From a virus, in the IMG/VR virus record IMGVR_UViG_3300012936_000167, positions 1-23,784 of that record: a stretch of 23,784 bases of DNA. One strand, 5' to 3'. The translations under genes and the position numbers were made by a program. Positions 3,106-23,784 of this stretch are shown here, piece by piece (positions within the stretch are counted from its first letter, which is position 1; each line of letters opens with the position of its first letter). The notes below the pieces were generated by a model. That model made no database searches. It was not told the origin of the DNA and saw nothing but the letters and a program-made list of their open reading frames with translations.

Positions 3106-3659
3106 GAATTGAGGTAATCCAAACAGATTGCTCAGCGATAAATAGCGTTTATATCTATCATGATTTTTTAGAAAAAGAGGAAGAATTAGTTTTTTTAACT
3201 GATAAAGTAAAAAAATACACTGAAACTAATAGTCCTCTAGACTATCAAACCAATGTTCAAGCTAAAATGACCGATTGGAAAACTCTTTTACAAGATCAAG
3301 ATTTTAATTTTATTCATCAAAAAATATTAATGACTTTATATAATACTATAAATTTGAGAAATCCTTGTGCTAATGAAAGACTATTTTTATCTTTTACGGA
3401 TTCATGGGGCATGTCTCATAAACAAGGAGATTTTACTAAAAATCATATTCATAATTTTAATGTCTGGTCTGGAGCTTTTTACTTGGAGGTTCCTCATGAA
3501 ACTAAAATGTGGTTTGAGGATTATCAATCTGATGTTTCGTTAAAAAACAACATGTTAGTGCTTTTTCAAGGTGCTACGAAACACAAAGTACTTCCTCATA
3601 TAGGCGATAAAAATAGATATTCTATGGCGTTTAATATTAGTATAACATCTCACCAATAA
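3102..3659 (+). CDS. 2OG-Fe(II) oxygenase (2OG-FeII_Oxy_5-like)
   Basis: This 185-residue protein matches the pattern of the phage 2OG-Fe(II) oxygenase group often labelled 2OG-FeII_Oxy_5 (PF13759). The key run is NHIHNFNVWSGAFYLEV with His115 and His117, where an HxH pair precedes an SGxxYL strand. A KNNMLVLFQG strand leads to the distal His161 (TKHKV), and Arg172 follows eleven residues later in NRYSMAFNI as the likely 2OG anchor. The acidic partner of a classical HxD is not obvious, which is usual for this group as I know it. It starts within the ATGA overlap with the glycosyltransferase gene and is the last gene before the 40-base gap that precedes the large virion gene, so it closes the first accessory cassette. 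Confidence 0.78.
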   Translation: MRIEVIQTDCSAINSVYIYHDFLEKEEELVFLTDKVKKYTETNSPLDYQTNVQAKMTDWKTLLQDQDFNFIHQKILMTLYNTINLRNPCANERLFLSFTDSWGMSHKQGDFTKNHIHNFNVWSGAFYLEVPHETKMWFEDYQSDVSLKNNMLVLFQGATKHKVLPHIGDKNRYSMAFNISITSHQ

Positions 3660-9111: not shown

Positions 9112-10013
9112 TGGCAGTCACGGAACAAATTATTAGACAACCTCAGTTTATAGAGCAAAGAACAGAACAGCTTCTTGAGTCTGTCTTTGGTCCTCAGGGT
9201 GTTGCTAATACAGCTATGACAATACCGTCTGCTCAGGTAGCACAGTTTACTGCTCCTCAAACAACTGCAGCTAACCTAGCAACTACAGGTGTGGGTGCTT
9301 ATCAACCTTATTTAGAGTCAGCCGCTAACACACAAGTTATGGCAGCTAACACTGCTTTAGGGGCAACTCAAATGTATGACCCTAACATTACATCACAATT
9401 TATGAATCCATATCAGCAACAAGTTACTCAACAAGCCTTAGCTGAGATGGACAGACAAGCGGCGATCGCACAAAACCAGGCCGCAGCTCAAGCTGTAGGC
9501 GCAGGAGCTTTTGGTGGTGGTCGTGAGGGTGTTGTTCAAGCAGAACTTGCTAGAAACTTACAAGATATAAAAACAAGAAGAATATTTGAAGATGCTTCAA
9601 GAAACTATTTACAAGCACAACAAGCTGGATTAGCCGCTCAACAGGCTCAACAACAAAGACAATTACAAGCCGCTGGTATTTTAGGTGGTGTAGGCGCACA
9701 ACAATTAGGTTTAGGTCAGTTTGCACAAGCTGGATTGCAGGGTGACATTCAACAGTTATTAGGTATTGGTGGCATGCAACAAGCACAAGATCAAGCTCAG
9801 TTAGATGTTGCACGTCAAAACATATTAGAAGCTCAAAGAGAGCCTTTTGGTCGAATACAGTTTGCCTCTGATATTTTAAGAGGTGTGCCTTCAGGACAAC
9901 AGGTCTTTACAACACAACCCTCTCCTTCACCGTTATCTCAATTACTAGGGGCAGGAGTTAGTTTAGCGGGCATTGGTTCGTTGTTCGGTGGTAATTCAGG
10001 AATACAGTTGTGA
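9111..10013 (+). CDS. Ala/Gln-rich internal virion protein
   Basis: This 300-residue protein is extremely rich in Ala, Gln and Gly and mostly helical. ITSQFMNPYQQQVTQQAL and MDRQAAIAQNQAAAQAVG lead into a glycine turn (GAGAFGGGREGVV), then a second long helix (QAELARNLQDIKTRRIF to NYLQAQQAGLAAQQAQQ). This pattern, including the GAFGGGREGV turn, recurs in phage proteins placed among DNA-ejection proteins. The C-terminus (LSQLLGAGVSLAGIGSLFGG) is a hydrophobic glycine-rich stretch that could insert into a membrane. It starts at the ATG of a TAATG overlap and stops one base before the next gene. Repeated CAA/GCA codons make the DNA low in complexity here. Confidence 0.65.
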   Translation: MAVTEQIIRQPQFIEQRTEQLLESVFGPQGVANTAMTIPSAQVAQFTAPQTTAANLATTGVGAYQPYLESAANTQVMAANTALGATQMYDPNITSQFMNPYQQQVTQQALAEMDRQAAIAQNQAAAQAVGAGAFGGGREGVVQAELARNLQDIKTRRIFEDASRNYLQAQQAGLAAQQAQQQRQLQAAGILGGVGAQQLGLGQFAQAGLQGDIQQLLGIGGMQQAQDQAQLDVARQNILEAQREPFGRIQFASDILRGVPSGQQVFTTQPSPSPLSQLLGAGVSLAGIGSLFGGNSGIQL

Positions 10014-10014
10014 T

Positions 10015-12678
10015 ATGGCAAATGATATACTTAAACGAAAAATGTTTGCTAAAGGGTTTCAACCTGGAGGTCAAATAGGTGGTCCTGGATCTGGACCTAT
10101 AGACATTATTCAAGGCAGCTTCCCATTTAAAATGGGTCAAACTTTTGGTCAGGAGTTAAAGCAAGGACTTCAACCCGGTTATTTGTCTAATGTAGCTGGC
10201 GCAGGTGTAGGCTCTGTTTATGAAAATTTAGGTAATATTCAAAATTATTTTTTATCTCCTGTTTTTGATGTAGGTAAAAGAGCGATCAATGAGTTAAGCA
10301 CAGGTTTTTTAGGAACAGATAGAACAGAATTTGCTCCAACTCCTCGAGTTGCAACAAGCGGTAATCCTTATGGTTTACCTGTTAATTTATTAAATGAAAT
10401 AACTCCAAACACTTTTGATACTTATTACCCACCAGGAACTCAAGTTAGAATTTCTAAGATTGCTGACATCTATGCTAAAGGCGGTGGTGACTATCTCAGA
10501 AACACATTGGGTGTTTCAGGTGAGGAACTACAGGCCGCAGGTGTTTTAAGATTACCTAACACACCACCTCCAGGAACTGAAATGAGATTGGCTGGTGGCT
10601 CTGATTTCTTAGATTCAGAAATGATTTTAGCTCAGGCTACGGATACTGATAAATCAAGCAATCAGGTTGAGGCAGAAACAAAACAAGTTATTGAGCAAAC
10701 GGGTGGAGATGCTTCTGTCATGGAAGAAGTAATGGCACGAAGAGATCAAATATCAACCGACATAGGTGAGTACCCTGAGGGTGTGCCAGCAGGTGGTCAA
10801 GACTCTGTTACAAGCATGGAGCAAGAGCAACAAAACAAACAAGATAATCAAAATAAACAAGAAGAAGAATTTAACTTTGGCGCAGAAGTTGAAAAATTAA
10901 AACAAGAGTTACAAAAGGTTACTGGTCCTGAAAACTCAACTGATGCCGCTTTGCTTTTATTGAAGCTAGGTTCAAACTTAATGAGTGGTAAAACTTCTGA
11001 AAAAGGACTGACTGGTTTCTTAGATGTGTTAGGTCAGGCAGGAGCTCCTGTGGTAGACACAGCAATTGCATTAGCTGATAAAAGAAGAAGCGAGGAAAGA
11101 GAATTAGCTCTGACTGCAGCTGGTATTGTTCAAGACAGAAGAGAAAAACAACTAGACAGAGAATATAGTTTACTCGAAGTACAGGCTAAAAACCTTGGTG
11201 AAATAGGTGACAATAACTATGTGTATGAAATACAGTATGACATGGATCCAAACTCACCTACTTATGGTCAAAAGTTAGCTGATACAAATATCGGTCAAAG
11301 AGTTGATAATCCAAATGATTTACTAGGTTATAAAAAATCGAATGTTGTGTTCGAAATAGAACAGCCTGATGGAACAACCATCATGATAGAAAAACCAAGA
11401 TACAATGTGTTAGATACACCGCCATGGGAGATGAAATACAACTGGGCTGGTTTAATGGATCCTGAAGGCGATAAGTGGACCACGGACCAATCACGTTTGG
11501 GAAGAATTAAAAGTTCTATTGGCAAGATTGATCAAGTTTCAGCGATGTTTGGTGACGGTAATGAGATCGGTTTCTTTTACAATCCAAAAGCTGCTGTTTA
11601 TACAATTGGAACTATTTGGAATCAATTAAAAGGTCAGTATCAAGATGCAGGTAAGTCATTACCTAACCTGAGTCAACAAGAAGTTGAAATGGCATACAAC
11701 CAAATTGCTAATGATCCTAATTTAAATGAAGAGGCAAAAGCGATAGCCTTACAAAACCTTGAACAAGTGGTTACAGGTAAAGGTATTTATAGCGATCAAA
11801 ACTATTTTGGAAACAAAGATTACTTATCTTATCAAGATACCTTAGCACAATATCTTAACGCTGAACTGAACGACAAATTAGACGTTGCTGGTGGAATGTC
11901 AATTAACGATTTACAAGTAGGTAAGACTGAATACATCATGGGTCAGATGCCTTTTGGTGGCGACGACACAATGAAAGACATCAGAGCGATCAGAAACAAA
12001 GGATATTCAGGAACATATTTTGATGTTAACTCAGGACAAAACGTTCCTTACGATGGTGGAGACACTATTGGTGAATTAGCTGACGACAAGTTTGAGTATT
12101 TAAATGATACTGCTGAAAAGTTTGGTTTAGTGTACGATCCCTCACAAAGAAAGTTTGTTCCTAGTTTTGACTCTGTTACTGCTCCTGATGCAGACAGATC
12201 AATCACTCTTAACTTAGGTGGCAAGGAAGTTGTTATTCCTTCTACAATTGCTGCTGTTGACATTTATGCAACTATTCTTGGTTTTGATTTCGCTAGATAC
12301 ATTCAGCCTGAGCAACGATTATTGAAAGATACAATTCAATCTTCTGTTGGTAAGTTTGATTTAACTGGTCAGTTCTCTTCTCCTCAAGTTTTATTATCAA
12401 GGGTTAGAGGTTTTAAAAATCAATTAATTCAAGAATACAATGAAACAATAGATCAAAACTTTTTACCTCAATATCGTGCAAGACATTATTATAAGCCTGA
12501 TGGTTACTTACCTACTACCACTTATGATTATGCAAATCCTGAAATAAGATATGATGGACAGATTGAATCTTCTGCCTCAGGGGCAAACGCAGCTGCCGAT
12601 CCTGATAACTTATTGAAGTTCTATGACATTGATGTAGATTTAAATTTAAACGCACCAACAGGAGCTAAGTTACCGTAA
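10015..12678 (+). CDS. Large internal virion protein (887 aa)
   Basis: I place the start at ATG 10015, one base after the upstream stop, rather than at a GTG 42 bases earlier, because the product then begins MANDILKRKMFAKGFQPGG and does not overlap the previous gene. The 887 residues comprise a Gly/Pro-rich N-terminus (GGQIGGPGSGPIDIIQ), an acidic Gln-rich linker (around 265-285) and a coiled-coil-like helix (EVEKLKQELQKV). A long DKRRSEERELALTAAG to DREKQ region and a beta/loop-rich C-terminal half follow. No enzymatic motif was recognised. By size and position it fits the second of the large ejection or internal-core proteins of podoviruses. The function is inferred. Confidence 0.6.
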   Translation: MANDILKRKMFAKGFQPGGQIGGPGSGPIDIIQGSFPFKMGQTFGQELKQGLQPGYLSNVAGAGVGSVYENLGNIQNYFLSPVFDVGKRAINELSTGFLGTDRTEFAPTPRVATSGNPYGLPVNLLNEITPNTFDTYYPPGTQVRISKIADIYAKGGGDYLRNTLGVSGEELQAAGVLRLPNTPPPGTEMRLAGGSDFLDSEMILAQATDTDKSSNQVEAETKQVIEQTGGDASVMEEVMARRDQISTDIGEYPEGVPAGGQDSVTSMEQEQQNKQDNQNKQEEEFNFGAEVEKLKQELQKVTGPENSTDAALLLLKLGSNLMSGKTSEKGLTGFLDVLGQAGAPVVDTAIALADKRRSEERELALTAAGIVQDRREKQLDREYSLLEVQAKNLGEIGDNNYVYEIQYDMDPNSPTYGQKLADTNIGQRVDNPNDLLGYKKSNVVFEIEQPDGTTIMIEKPRYNVLDTPPWEMKYNWAGLMDPEGDKWTTDQSRLGRIKSSIGKIDQVSAMFGDGNEIGFFYNPKAAVYTIGTIWNQLKGQYQDAGKSLPNLSQQEVEMAYNQIANDPNLNEEAKAIALQNLEQVVTGKGIYSDQNYFGNKDYLSYQDTLAQYLNAELNDKLDVAGGMSINDLQVGKTEYIMGQMPFGGDDTMKDIRAIRNKGYSGTYFDVNSGQNVPYDGGDTIGELADDKFEYLNDTAEKFGLVYDPSQRKFVPSFDSVTAPDADRSITLNLGGKEVVIPSTIAAVDIYATILGFDFARYIQPEQRLLKDTIQSSVGKFDLTGQFSSPQVLLSRVRGFKNQLIQEYNETIDQNFLPQYRARHYYKPDGYLPTTTYDYANPEIRYDGQIESSASGANAAADPDNLLKFYDIDVDLNLNAPTGAKLP

Positions 12679-15530
12679 TGAAAACTTTTACACAATTACC
12701 TGATTTATTAAGAGCTCGAATGGAGTTCATGCAACAAAACAGCAATCCTGAGGTGTTTCCTTCTTATACTTTTGATGATGTTGCAAAAATATCAGACGCT
12801 GGTTTCGATCAGGTCAGAGGTTTTGCTACAGGCGATCAAGTAAAAAAAGAAGAGGATGACAAACCTCAAATCTCTCCTGATCTTCCACCAGGTTCTCCTT
12901 TACCAACATTTATGGGTATGGAACAAGCCGCAGAATCTTATGGCGGTACAACAAGAGAAACGGGTGCAAGCATACCGATTAATCAAATGCAATCTATATT
13001 GGTGCAAATGGCAGAGAACGGTTTGAAAAAAGGATTGCCTCAAGCTCAAATTATTAATGATATGGAGAGAATGAAAGCTGAATACGGATATACCGATGCG
13101 ATGATGCACCCACAAACAGCTAGTATTGATGATATCAATGACACTGGTGGTTATTTAAATGGAAGACCTAATCCATTTCCTATGTTAAAGCTTTCTTCTT
13201 CTGTGCTTTCAAGCATAGCGGGAACTTTAAAAGGAGCTAGAGTTGGAGCTTTAGCAGGTCCTTTAGGTGCGGTTTTTGGAGGATTACTGGGTGGAACTGC
13301 TGCTTATGTTTCTAACTTAGCTGGTTATGAAGGATTATTGTCTTATTTAAATGGCAAAGGTTTGTTGTATACGCCAACTTATAACGAGTATGGTGAGTTC
13401 ATGGGACAACAGAAAGGTATCTATAGACCAACTGTTGATGAACAAGTTGATTATTTGAAAAGAGAGGCTTTGATTGACCTTGCTTTTGGCGGTGCTTTCT
13501 TATCTGCAAGACCTGCTCTAGGTTTGTTTAAAGCTGGTTTGAACAAAGCAACAGGTGTCAATAAAGAGGCTTATCAAAAACTAAAAGCGATAGGAATAGA
13601 TCCAGGTCGCTCTGAAGTATCAAACATGTTTATTTTTAATTCTCTACCTAACTCAATAGGTAGAACACCTTTCTTTGGTACTGTGTTTAGAAAAGCCTAT
13701 GAGAAAAACGTTGAAAAATATTTGAAGAATGTTGATAAAAACGTTATTCCTGGTTTTGACCAATTAGTACAAGCTATGAATGGCCAGGGGCTTGCACCTA
13801 AAAGCATGATCGCTGATATGGGTTATGACATGGCAACCACAGTCAGTAAATATACCAAACAGGCTACCAAAGATATTAACAAAGTTTACACTCAATCTAG
13901 AGGTTTAGCTGAGAGTTTAGGAGATGTATTCTCTATCAAAGGTGCTGGTAATCAAGCAAGAGAAATTGCAAAGTCAATCTTTAAAAATGCACCTAAGGAT
14001 GACGCTGGAAAGTTTTTAAATAAAGCAGATGAGAGTGTTTACAGGTTTTTAAAAGGATTAGAAAAAGACGCTGTTGAAACAGGAACCATAAACTTTGGTA
14101 AAGTAGACGGTTACATGAATCAGATTGACAACTACATGCAACTTGATTTTAAACAAAAATCTTCGATTAAAGATATCTCAGAGAAGGTTAAAGGTGTGTT
14201 AACTGAATTAGAAAAAAGTTTAGGTGCTCCTGTTCCTTCTTTAAAAAGTATTACAGGTAAATCAAACACGGCTATAAAAGAATACATGAACTCCTTGAAT
14301 CAAGCAGATCAAGTTTACAGAGATTATGCAGTTCTTTTTGGTGGTCCTGATGGTAAACATTTCAAAGGTATTACTAAGTTTCAGTTCTTCAACGAGTTTC
14401 AACAACAAGGAAGTAAGTACGTTGAGGACTTGTTTAAAAAAGCATTTCGATTAGAAACTAAAACTTCTGTCGAAAACATGTCTAAAATGTTAGGTCCTGA
14501 TAAGTTTAAAGACGCTGTAAGATTAAGAATTGCTGATGCTTTTCAAAAATCTTTTGAAGGATCTCCAGGTTTCATGAGATCTGCAAAAGACAGAACAGAT
14601 GATTTTTTTGGTCAATTAGCTGATATGAAGTTCAATGTTAATTCGTTTAAAAATAATTTAGGTCTTGATCAAATTATGAAGTTTGATGCTAACAAGCTAG
14701 TAGCTATGGATGAGGCTTTAAAAAGAGCTGGCTTAGGTATCGGTGTTGAAGATTTAAAGAAATTTGCAGATGCCTCTGAACAATTTTTCAATAATAAAAA
14801 CTTTAACTTATCAACTTACTTGGCTCGTAGAACACAATTGGGTGGTATTAAATCAACCTTGCGTGCGATATCAGGAGGCTTCTTGTTCCCTGGTGGAGCC
14901 GCCGCTGGTGCAGCTGCGGTATCAGGTAGTGTGGGTTTATTAAACGCTGTTACTTTCTTGGTTCTTGGTAAGTATGCTACAAAAATATTTTCTAATCCTT
15001 TTAGTATTAATCCAATCAAAGATGCTATTTCTACACAAGCAACAAACATTAAAGGTGTTCGTAAAAACTATTTAGAGTTGGCCAGGACACTAGAAAAACT
15101 TTTGAATGAAAACCCTGACTTAGAAGAAAATTTAGAGAACGATTTTAATTCTATTCAAAGAAGAATTAACACAACCGTTGGTAACTTCGCTCCTTTAAGT
15201 AAAGGATTCAATGACTTTCAAAAAGGTAACAATCAAGAGTTAATGGAATTTTTAGAAGGCTTCAAAGACATACCAGACACGAATATTGAAACACCAACCG
15301 TGCCCGCAGAAGAAAGTCAAGAGCCTGAGTTCAGAGAACAAGTCACTCCTATTCCTCAAGAAACAGGAGTAGCAAGTAATGTTCAACAAAATGAACCACG
15401 CTTTACTGATACTAGACTTGCTTCTGTAGATGATCTTTTAGCTTCACCCACAGATACATCTGCTAGAAATGCACAGGATTTATTTCCTCAAGACGCATTA
15501 TTACAAGCAGCATTAAGGAGACAAGCATAA
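12678..15530 (+). CDS. Large internal virion / DNA-ejection protein with two hydrophobic segments (950 aa)
   Basis: This 950-residue protein is mainly helical and is the largest product in the window. Two long Gly/Ala-rich hydrophobic stretches stand out: residues about 173-217 (ALAGPLGAVFGGLLGGTAAY) and about 731-771 (FPGGAAAGAAAVSGSVGLLN, then FLVLGKYATK). Between them lies a long charged region with many Lys and Phe residues (SVENMSKMLGPDKFKDAVRL). The tail after 880 is acidic and Pro/Gln-rich, as in disordered ends. The arrangement fits an ejected protein that lines a channel across the host membrane. It starts at the ATG of a TAATG overlap and ends in another, so it is translationally linked to both neighbours. 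No enzyme motif was seen. Confidence 0.65.
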   Translation: MKTFTQLPDLLRARMEFMQQNSNPEVFPSYTFDDVAKISDAGFDQVRGFATGDQVKKEEDDKPQISPDLPPGSPLPTFMGMEQAAESYGGTTRETGASIPINQMQSILVQMAENGLKKGLPQAQIINDMERMKAEYGYTDAMMHPQTASIDDINDTGGYLNGRPNPFPMLKLSSSVLSSIAGTLKGARVGALAGPLGAVFGGLLGGTAAYVSNLAGYEGLLSYLNGKGLLYTPTYNEYGEFMGQQKGIYRPTVDEQVDYLKREALIDLAFGGAFLSARPALGLFKAGLNKATGVNKEAYQKLKAIGIDPGRSEVSNMFIFNSLPNSIGRTPFFGTVFRKAYEKNVEKYLKNVDKNVIPGFDQLVQAMNGQGLAPKSMIADMGYDMATTVSKYTKQATKDINKVYTQSRGLAESLGDVFSIKGAGNQAREIAKSIFKNAPKDDAGKFLNKADESVYRFLKGLEKDAVETGTINFGKVDGYMNQIDNYMQLDFKQKSSIKDISEKVKGVLTELEKSLGAPVPSLKSITGKSNTAIKEYMNSLNQADQVYRDYAVLFGGPDGKHFKGITKFQFFNEFQQQGSKYVEDLFKKAFRLETKTSVENMSKMLGPDKFKDAVRLRIADAFQKSFEGSPGFMRSAKDRTDDFFGQLADMKFNVNSFKNNLGLDQIMKFDANKLVAMDEALKRAGLGIGVEDLKKFADASEQFFNNKNFNLSTYLARRTQLGGIKSTLRAISGGFLFPGGAAAGAAAVSGSVGLLNAVTFLVLGKYATKIFSNPFSINPIKDAISTQATNIKGVRKNYLELARTLEKLLNENPDLEENLENDFNSIQRRINTTVGNFAPLSKGFNDFQKGNNQELMEFLEGFKDIPDTNIETPTVPAEESQEPEFREQVTPIPQETGVASNVQQNEPRFTDTRLASVDDLLASPTDTSARNAQDLFPQDALLQAALRRQA

Positions 15531-21444: not shown

Positions 21445-22947
21445 TTGAGATACGAGAAATTTAGAGAGATATTTAAAGGTTTAGATAGAGCCTATGGTGT
21501 CTATTATAAAGGTGAAACAAAGGAGAATGGTAAGCTATCTGGTAAAGCTTACATCAAAAAAGAACCTTTGTTTGATCAATATTATGACGCTCATCTAGAC
21601 GGCAAAGACCCTGGCTTAGGGATTATTCCTATTATGGATGATTCTAATTGTTATTGGGGTTGCTGTGATATTGATAAGTATCCTCTTGATTTCAAAGCAA
21701 TAATAAAAAAGTTAAGAACTAAAAATATTCCTATGATTGTGTGTCGTTCAAAGAGTGGCGGGGCACATCTATTTCTTTTTGCAAAACAATCTGTGCCTGC
21801 ATCTTTAATGAGAAGAAAGCTATCAGAGATAGCTGCATCTTTGGGATACGCTGACTGTGAAATATTTCCGAAGCAAGAAGAGATTAAAAAAGACAGAGGA
21901 GACACAGGTAATTTTTTAAATCTACCTTATCACGGTGGTGATGAGAGTATGAGATATGCTATGGATGATGAGGGTAATTCATTATCTGTAGAAGAGTTTT
22001 ATCAATTATATGATAAATATGTTTTGACTCCAAAAGAACTGAAAGATGTAAAGGTTGTTGAAGAGTCAAGAGAGTTAAAGGATGGTCCACCTTGTTTGGA
22101 AACTTTGATGGCTGAGGGTTTCCCTGAAGGTACAAGAGACAATGCTTTGTATCAATACGCAGTGTATGCAAAGAAAGCTTTTCCTGATCACTGGCAAGAC
22201 AAGATATCTGAGTTCAACCATAAATACATGGACCCAGCTTTATCTGTTAACCAGGTAAACAAAACAATCAGACAACATGAAAAGAAAGAGTATGCGTACA
22301 AGTGTAAGGATCAACCAATGTGTTCACATTGTAATTCTAATTTATGTCGTCAAAGACAATTTGGTATTGGTGTAGATTACGAACACAAGTTTGGTGACTT
22401 AACAAAGTATCAATCCGATGAATCTGTTTGGTTTCTAAACGTTGATGGTAGGCGTTTGGAGTTAACCACAGATAGCCTGTTCGAGCAGTCTAAGTTTCGA
22501 AAAGCTTGTATGGATAATTTGAATGTACTCCCAAATCCATTGAGTAATAGAGACTGGACTGCTCGCATACAGCAGCTACTACAATCAGTCGAGATAATCG
22601 AAATGCCCAAAGAGGTTAGAAAGGAAGGACGGTTTGAACAACACTTGGATAACTTTATTAATGACCAAGGTAAGGCACTCAATATTGAAGAAATACTTAT
22701 TGGAAAAGCTTGGTCAGAAGAAGGAAAAATCTACTTCAAGATGTCTTCACTAGAAGAATACTTGATGAAGAAAAGATTTACTGAGTTTACAACAACTCAG
22801 ATGGGGGCACGTATCAAACAAATAGGCGGTGGTGATACTCGTAAAAGAGTTCGTGGTCGTCTAGTTTACATGTGGTATGTGCCCGATCAGGAGAAAGAAG
22901 AGGTCAACCTAGACTTGCCTTCAATGAAGGAGGAAATACCATTTTAA
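21445..22947 (+). CDS. Archaeo-eukaryotic-type primase with Cys-rich motif and SSB-tip-like tail
   Basis: This 500-residue protein makes primers for DNA replication. The N-terminal domain has the archaeo-eukaryotic primase pattern: GCCDIDKYP with Asp75 and Asp77 as metal ligands, RSKSGGAHLFLF (101-112) with His108, EIFPKQ (139-144) and GNFLNLPYHGG (155-165). A Cys motif follows (CKDQPMCSHCNSNLC, Cys287, 293, 296 and 301) with RQFGIG just after, probably a metal site. The C-terminus ends PSMKEEIPF, like an SSB tip. I chose TTG 21445, five bases after GGGAG, because the ATG at 21418 lies inside the terminator hairpin; either is possible. The MTase start overlaps its end by 7 bases. The fold assignment is confident; a helicase domain is not seen. 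Confidence 0.82.
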   Translation: MRYEKFREIFKGLDRAYGVYYKGETKENGKLSGKAYIKKEPLFDQYYDAHLDGKDPGLGIIPIMDDSNCYWGCCDIDKYPLDFKAIIKKLRTKNIPMIVCRSKSGGAHLFLFAKQSVPASLMRRKLSEIAASLGYADCEIFPKQEEIKKDRGDTGNFLNLPYHGGDESMRYAMDDEGNSLSVEEFYQLYDKYVLTPKELKDVKVVEESRELKDGPPCLETLMAEGFPEGTRDNALYQYAVYAKKAFPDHWQDKISEFNHKYMDPALSVNQVNKTIRQHEKKEYAYKCKDQPMCSHCNSNLCRQRQFGIGVDYEHKFGDLTKYQSDESVWFLNVDGRRLELTTDSLFEQSKFRKACMDNLNVLPNPLSNRDWTARIQQLLQSVEIIEMPKEVRKEGRFEQHLDNFINDQGKALNIEEILIGKAWSEEGKIYFKMSSLEEYLMKKRFTEFTTTQMGARIKQIGGGDTRKRVRGRLVYMWYVPDQEKEEVNLDLPSMKEEIPF

Positions 22948-23784
22948 AACATTTAGATTTATTTTCAGGTATAGGTGGATTTAGTCTTGGCTTGGAGGAG
23001 GCGGGACTGGTTGATACAGTAGCTTTTTGTGACTGGGAACCATACTGTCAAGAAGTATTAAAAAAACACTGGCCAGGAGTGCCTGTGTATGGAGATATAA
23101 AGGAGCTAACACATGAAAGACTCAGATCAGATGGAATTGATTCCATCGACATCATTACAGGAGGATACCCCTGTCAACCCTTCTCAGTCGCTGGACGTCA
23201 AAAAGCTGAGCAGGATCCGAGACATCTCTGGCCAGAGTATTTTAGACTTATCAAAGAACTCAGGCCCACTTGGGTTATTGGAGAAAACGTTAGTGGACAC
23301 GTTAAACTCGGTCTCGACACCGTACTCGAGAACTTGGAGAGTGAAGGCTACGCCACAAGGACGTTTAGTATTTCAGCTTCGAGCATCGGTGCAAACCATC
23401 AAAGAGAAAGGATCTGGATTATTGCCAACTCCAACAACACAGGAGATAGAACATCCGAACATGAAATTGACAAAGACAGGGAGAAGACTGTCGAAGGACG
23501 GAAAGAGCAGCCACAGCTTAAATCTAGCCGACACAGTAAGGATATGGAGAACTCCAGACGCTCACAGTGGCCGTGGAGCTTCGAGCAAGGAGAGGATGAA
23601 AATGAAACTGAAGAAGGGAATGCCAATCAGTTTGAACGATCAGGTAGCTCATCCGAACCTGATGTGGCCAACACCAAGAGCGTCAGCAGCTATGGCAGAG
23701 AACATCGAAAATATACAGAGGAGGGGGACAGAAAGAGGGAAGTTGGAAGAGCGGGTAGCCCTGAGGTGGCCGACTCCGACAACG
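22941..23784 (+). CDS. 5-methylcytosine DNA methyltransferase (3' partial)
   Basis: This enzyme transfers a methyl group from S-adenosylmethionine to carbon 5 of cytosine. The visible 281 residues carry motif I DLFSGIGGFSLGLE (6-19), motif II CDWEPYC (30-36), motif IV GGYPCQPFSVAG with the catalytic Cys78, motif VI ENV (115-117) and motif VIII QRERIWIIA (154-162). The region after 163 is hydrophilic and probably belongs to the target-recognition part; motifs IX and X lie beyond the window. The only start that keeps motif I intact is ATT 22941, seven bases after a perfect AAGGAGG. The next possible start, a TTG at 22996 or so, would remove motif I. It overlaps the primase by 7 bases and probably protects phage DNA from restriction. 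Confidence 0.88.
   Translation, partial: MLKHLDLFSGIGGFSLGLEEAGLVDTVAFCDWEPYCQEVLKKHWPGVPVYGDIKELTHERLRSDGIDSIDIITGGYPCQPFSVAGRQKAEQDPRHLWPEYFRLIKELRPTWVIGENVSGHVKLGLDTVLENLESEGYATRTFSISASSIGANHQRERIWIIANSNNTGDRTSEHEIDKDREKTVEGRKEQPQLKSSRHSKDMENSRRSQWPWSFEQGEDENETEEGNANQFERSGSSSEPDVANTKSVSSYGREHRKYTEEGDRKREVGRAGSPEVADSDN
23113..23784 (+). CDS. Overlapping gene in +1 frame of the methyltransferase (3' partial)
   Basis: A second frame, shifted by one base from the methyltransferase, is open for all 224 codons to the window edge. It starts at ATG 23113 behind an ideal AAAGGAG (23099-23105, seven bases upstream). The protein has a plausible composition and repeated motifs: SRTWRVKATPQGRLVFQLRA (about 72-91), then LLPTP (103-107), IWRTP (144-148), LMWPTP (183-188) and LRWPTP (217-222). 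I recall phage proteins with the same TPxGRLxFQL and LLPTPT or WPTP pattern that are found with or annotated as cytosine methylases. A new overlapping gene or a conserved dual-coding region is therefore likely. A lone sequencing frameshift is less likely because the methyltransferase frame is also open throughout. No function can be stated. Confidence 0.6.
   Translation, partial: MKDSDQMELIPSTSLQEDTPVNPSQSLDVKKLSRIRDISGQSILDLSKNSGPLGLLEKTLVDTLNSVSTPYSRTWRVKATPQGRLVFQLRASVQTIKEKGSGLLPTPTTQEIEHPNMKLTKTGRRLSKDGKSSHSLNLADTVRIWRTPDAHSGRGASSKERMKMKLKKGMPISLNDQVAHPNLMWPTPRASAAMAENIENIQRRGTERGKLEERVALRWPTPTT

Follow-up and report, generated by a model that had tools for sequence, protein, structure and literature searches.

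The +1 reading frame that runs inside the cytosine methyltransferase gene at the end of the window is a real gene, and the locus is dual coding. The window is the complete virus record IMGVR_UViG_3300012936_000167 (23,784 bases), the end of which truncates both genes; we name the outer methyltransferase frame alpha and the inner +1 frame beta, and alpha stays open over the bases of beta, one base behind it. Together the two frames probably specify a split methyltransferase of the M.EcoHK31I kind, the nested subunit of which would be a combinatorial target-recognition array. The parts of the locus are listed in Table 1.

Table 1. Parts of the alpha/beta locus in the window.
Feature	Position	Strand	Evidence
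Alpha, C5-cytosine methyltransferase catalytic subunit, motifs I-VIII (probable start)	22941..23784	+	PF00145, phrog_363 and M.HhaI matches
Shine-Dalgarno AAAGGAG of beta, within alpha codons I-K-E	23099..23105	+	AAG Lys codon kept
Beta, nested +1-frame subunit, truncated	23113..23784	+	phrog_1008; conservation in comparable loci; kept ATG
Region I, with genuine dual coding: beta N-terminal domain (STPYSRTWRVKATPQGRLVFQL and adjacent sequence) under motifs IV-VIII of alpha	23113..23414	+	substitution rates, stop counts
Beta module 1, type m03 (LPTPTTQEIEHPNMKL...NLADTVRI)	23422..23544	+	type also found elsewhere in other arrays, e.g. third in L060
Beta module 2, type m00 (WRTPDAHSGRGASS...DQVAHPNLM)	23545..23664	+	commonest type, 43 loci
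Beta module 3, type m05 (WPTPRASAAMAENIENI...EERVALR)	23665..23766	+	
Beta module 4, WPTPTT, truncated by contig end	23767..23784	+	m09 in the closest relatives L006/L007/L009

Alpha matched phrog_363 and the C5-cytosine DNA methyltransferase catalytic domain PF00145 (E 3.5e-45), with motifs I, IV (PCQ), VI (ENV) and VIII. M.HhaI was the best match in both sequence and fold: its residues 14-182 were matched by the alpha sequence of the relative L006, and the confident part of the AlphaFold2 model of alpha is an M.HhaI-like catalytic domain, residues 1-166 and 340-360 being mostly confident and residues 182-339 predicted disordered. Full-length alphas (L086 and L006) carry motifs I-VIII and X; motif X (LGNSVVP) lies in the alpha frame past the contig end of the window, as seen in L086, and motif IX scoring found no canonical motif IX in the full-length alphas. 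Beside motif I of alpha, ATG, GTG and TTG are absent in the window and in about ten relatives, and the start is probably the ATT at 22941, behind AAGGAGG, with GTG 22872 as a possible alternative. At positions 22935-22950, and also in L006, L007, L095 and L129, GGAGG is followed by a conserved ACC-ATT-TTA, which suggests an ATT start of alpha overlapping the stop of the upstream primase gene (phrog_21866), although this conservation could alternatively be due to the end of the upstream gene itself (IPF-stop). The starts of alpha and beta are 169-172 bases apart.

As the original prediction had stated, beta is stop-free from its ATG at 23113 to the contig end, over 224 codons, with AAAGGAG seven bases upstream, while the methyltransferase frame with its PF00145 match is open across the same bases; the protein-like segments pointed out in the second frame (LLPTPT and LMWPTP) are present. 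When the synonymous codons of the methyltransferase were permuted, the +1 frame was open with P=0.0002 against 6.6 expected stops. Using the codon usage of the phage, it was open in 0 of 5000 trials (11.2 stops expected), and the full-length relative L086 likewise gave 0 of 5000. Stop-free +1 runs in the other genes of the window extend over only 23-62 codons.

The inner frame was then followed across two sets of loci, the first comprising 164 loci on viral contigs that were searched with each frame separately, and the later one 151 loci obtained either with only the methyltransferase frames of distant loci or, in bacterial genomes, with an alignment of methyltransferases. A beta relative was found in the +1 frame at 164/164 loci of the first set, at 147/151 of the later set (the remaining four being truncated or without a usable frame) and on 80/80 bacterial contigs, all these loci being mutually related, so that the counts are not independent events or samples. 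By record titles, the bacterial loci belong to Bacteroidota, Bacillota, Pseudomonadota, Planctomycetota, Acidobacteriota, Chloroflexota and others. In no case was the +1 frame broken by stops beside an intact methyltransferase; it was intact in every relative long enough. Several loci are unusual in other ways. Five apparently near-identical alpha/beta copies occur in one Roseovarius MAG chromosome (OX638333.1, L238-L242) and three in Lihuaxuella thermophila (L248-L250), perhaps as repeated prophages, and in L273 (1871-2882) part of the beta N-terminal domain replaces motif VIII in the alpha frame, which suggests either an assembly error or a pair of indels that shift the frame.

Selection was read from substitutions counted by alpha codon position (1:2:3) in 42 disjoint locus pairs. 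Before the overlap the counts were 172:90:488, the pattern of alpha coding. In region I, from the beta start to motif VIII, they were 192:68:315, at a rate of 0.046 compared to 0.108 before the overlap; in region II, between motifs VIII and IX, they became 967:559:515, a figure that includes swapped non-homologous modules diluting the signal; they were 69:17:50 at motif IX and 87:59:176 past it. Region I is constrained in both frames, because alpha third-position substitutions per site drop from 0.21 upstream of the overlap to 0.075, and the codon positions of the +1 frame are constrained; beta-frame stops in this region numbered 0 against 64.4 expected. Between the window and L086, region II differed by 32:6:2, corresponding to 32 synonymous and 4 non-synonymous changes in beta codons compared to 2 and 36 in alpha, so that in its middle part the methyltransferase frame is under hardly any selection at the protein level. 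In the four closest full-length relatives, identity is 89-92% for the +1 product and only 78-81% for the methyltransferase, and the disorder predicted for alpha 182-339 agrees with the low constraint in region II. These comparisons demonstrated that selection between motifs VIII and IX tracks beta, with alpha nearly free there. The claim of real dual coding accordingly stood in that both frames code, but in the middle of the overlap, past motif VIII, clear amino-acid selection was found only on beta.

Although alpha is nearly free in region II, it is kept open. With beta codons permuted synonymously, 553.6 alpha-frame stops were expected in the 12,985 codons of this region and 0 were observed, whereas the unused third frame held 1023 stops versus 961 expected, and the +1 frame before the overlap 344 versus 343. 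Alpha is therefore translated through the region to motif X. Long genes do have overlapping open frames by chance, but it is almost inconceivable that the +1 frame is such a chance or composition effect, with coding confined to the methyltransferase frame, given a probability of openness of 0.0002 or less, the frame present in all comparable relatives, and coding-type substitutions in region II falling in the +1 frame and not in the methyltransferase frame.

The start signals of beta are themselves conserved through alpha codon choice. The Lys codon under the Shine-Dalgarno sequence is AAG in 89/89 loci versus 130/912 (14%) in the rest of these genes, and T is the last base of the alpha codon containing the AT of the beta ATG in 88/88 loci versus 986/2231 (44%). 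Synonymous choice in alpha thus protects the ribosome-binding site and ATG of beta, which argues against a product made by frameshifting only, that is, a programmed +1 frameshift that fuses the catalytic part of alpha to the beta frame and yields one conventional chain without a separate beta. Such a fusion would account for the fact that both frames together hold the parts of one methyltransferase in canonical order, but conservation in both frames covers about 100 beta codons ahead of the modules, a second shift would be needed because alpha again encodes motif X, and alpha is kept stop-free across the array; we regard this reading as very unlikely indeed.

Beta matched phrog_1008, annotated 'DNA methyltransferase', with E 1e-20 for the window and 2e-28 for a full-length relative, in line with the likeness to phage methylase-related proteins that had been pointed out. 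The full-length relative is 281 aa long and ends in LNPTWVEWLMAYPKGWTDL, which is motif IX-like. Using a canonical motif IX derived from one-chain enzymes encoded in the same host genomes (RRLTPRECARLMGF/Y), the best match lay in 48/48 betas at the C-terminus, LNPxWVEWLMGYPxGWTDL; the match is short and scored 15.5 versus 6.1 +/- 4.3 for shuffles. IX-like motifs were also read by eye in most distant betas. In two bacterial loci, L288 (about 3341-3491) and L312 (about 2770-2910), motif IX immediately precedes motif X in the alpha frame and is missing from beta, and this motif order, as in a one-chain enzyme, strongly supports the identity of the beta motif as IX. By their sequences, these two loci would be a natural intermediate between the split and one-chain forms.

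Searches of Pfam, NCBIfam and PDB sequences with beta returned nothing usable and matched no solved structure, and an AlphaFold2 model of beta built with 48 relatives was too poor (pLDDT 50, pTM 0.24) to display a target-recognition fold. A beta that has neither a solved nor a predicted fold might be an independent protein, for instance one with a regulatory or anti-restriction function, whose gene simply happens to overlap that of the methyltransferase. However, motif IX is missing in alpha and carried by beta, L288 and L312 have that motif in the alpha frame and a beta without it, and alpha and beta co-occur in every comparable locus, so we consider an independent protein very unlikely. We strongly infer that alpha and beta form one two-chain enzyme.

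M.EcoHK31I, like M.EaeI and M.CfrI, is a C5-methyltransferase of two polypeptides, and its chains are likewise encoded in alternative frames, the starts of which lie about 160 bases from each other, comparable to the small-chain gene nested in another frame here. Its large chain carries motifs I-VIII and X and its small chain motif IX alone (PMC3404938), the same division as that of alpha, with I-VIII and X and without IX, and beta, with IX as indicated by the short motif. The predicted recognition domain of M.EcoHK31I was placed in the large subunit (prediction cited in PMC3404938); our data do not support this placement for the alpha/beta family, in which the variable region is selected in the small-chain frame and forms a shuffled multi-module array, while the copy in the large chain is a nearly unconstrained, predicted disordered, stop-free tether. 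M.AquI is also a two-subunit C5-methyltransferase naturally split within the recognition (variable) region, but its small chain carries both IX and X (PMC3404938), whereas here alpha retains motif X and one gene lies inside the other.

The part of beta that separates the N-terminal domain from motif IX is made up of an array of units, mostly 30-50 residues long and starting with (W)xTPx; these WPTP modules, ~40 residues each, number two to six per array. Among 93 loci, 57 module types in 67 arrays were distinguished, with types recurring at differing array positions, and the m03-m00-m05 array of the window with its truncated fourth unit is the same as in L006, L007 and L009. The modules of beta are shuffled: where the N-flanks are at least 97% identical, arrays differ in 45/88 locus pairs; L057 and L064 have identical N-flanks and arrays that differ by one module lost; and L020 and L123, at 99.6% flank identity, have zero units in common. 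L095/L153 and L102/L094 are further natural pairs with a one-module difference. At the unit starts lies an almost invariant DNA sequence, TGTGGCC.AC.CC, which is a plausible recombination seed. In L015, L019, L141, L149, L154 and L158, beta is open far beyond motif IX with more WPTP units and alpha continues beyond motif X, which gives the impression of another array or another enzyme further downstream.

Beta holds its two to six tandem swappable modules at the position of the recognition region, where they are candidate recognition domains. Multispecific Bacillus phage methyltransferases (SPR, SPbeta, phi3T and H2) contain tandem recognition modules (PMC8936443), in one chain and one frame, unlike the array in a second, nested gene described here. 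The position between motifs VIII and IX, the exchange of cassettes on constant flanks and this Bacillus phage precedent together make target recognition the likeliest role of the modules, and it is fairly likely that they read DNA targets. Alternatively, beta could be a true nested subunit whose modules serve as repeats that provide spacing or stability or that evade an enzyme-binding host factor. Their shortness and lack of sequence likeness to known recognition domains would suit such repeats, but the modules sit between VIII and IX/X, the recognition region of C5-methyltransferases, the exchange of cassettes while the flanks stay nearly identical is typical for determinants of specificity, and tandem recognition domains do exist in the Bacillus phage enzymes; this role is possible but doubtful.

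The expectation that database entries differ in the frame recorded was borne out. Two overlapping CDS are annotated in Paenibacillus larvae phage Shelly (gp55 and 'g55 internal gene', gp55/gp56) and in Xanthomonas phage PhiXhv-5, and only the outer CDS is listed in the records of Fitz, Lilo, R9.1 and C72C1. The gp55/gp56 pair, the PhiXhv-5 pair and PHROG 363 and 1008 have the same alpha/beta arrangement and carry no annotation beyond 'DNA methyltransferase'; for none of them did we find an account of the motif split, of the module array or of selection. A text search for phrog_1008 returned only another family number starting with the same digits, and no description of a nested-frame array, a frame switch of selection or the shuffling was found in open-licence literature. 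A homing insertion in a phage methylase gene similarly provides an alternate-frame protein with the host frame open across it, but it occurs in only some phages, whereas the inner gene here is universal and would provide one part of the enzyme. Split overlapping methyltransferases and multi-domain recognition arrays are each already known, and the shuffled array in a nested frame appears to be new.

No restriction endonuclease gene was seen adjoining the methyltransferase, and therefore an orphan, anti-restriction role, as judged from phage biology, is likely. Downstream of the locus, L086 has a helicase-like ORF (judged by eye). Elsewhere in the window, a ferrochelatase-like gene (522-1145; phrog_2954, E 1.7e-45) is an unusual metabolic gene for a phage, and two large adjoining ORFs of 901 and 950 codons (9973-15530) have no PHROG match.

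In the mechanism that we propose, a split C5-cytosine methyltransferase would have both of its chains encoded by one locus, in two frames. Alpha would supply the catalytic domain (I-VIII), a long low-constraint tether and then motif X; beta, translated from its own ATG and ribosome-binding site inside alpha, would consist of the N-terminal domain, two to six WPTP modules and motif IX, and in the assembled enzyme would provide the target-recognising small domain missing from alpha. Modules would be gained, lost and swapped as cassettes, probably via recombination at the near-invariant W-P-T-P DNA, and each cassette would need a length divisible by three and no alpha-frame stop for alpha still to get to motif X. 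Most likely as alternative target-recognition domains, the modules may allow the phage to change or add methylated sites and thereby escape host restriction.

On balance, we favor a frame-interleaved enzyme family in phages and many bacterial phyla, in which the nested +1 gene carries combinatorial swappable target-recognition domains and the outer frame serves as a sequence-free tether across any modules. As an example of dual coding on one strand, the locus is large and clean, and the switch of selection from one frame to the other can be seen along a single gene. In many database 'cytosine methyltransferase' sequences, the middle part arises as a by-product of another frame, and therefore alignments, trees and recognition-site predictions that draw on it are misleading. 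The modules also constitute a natural library, with at least 57 types in 67 combinations that may be linked to methylated sites.
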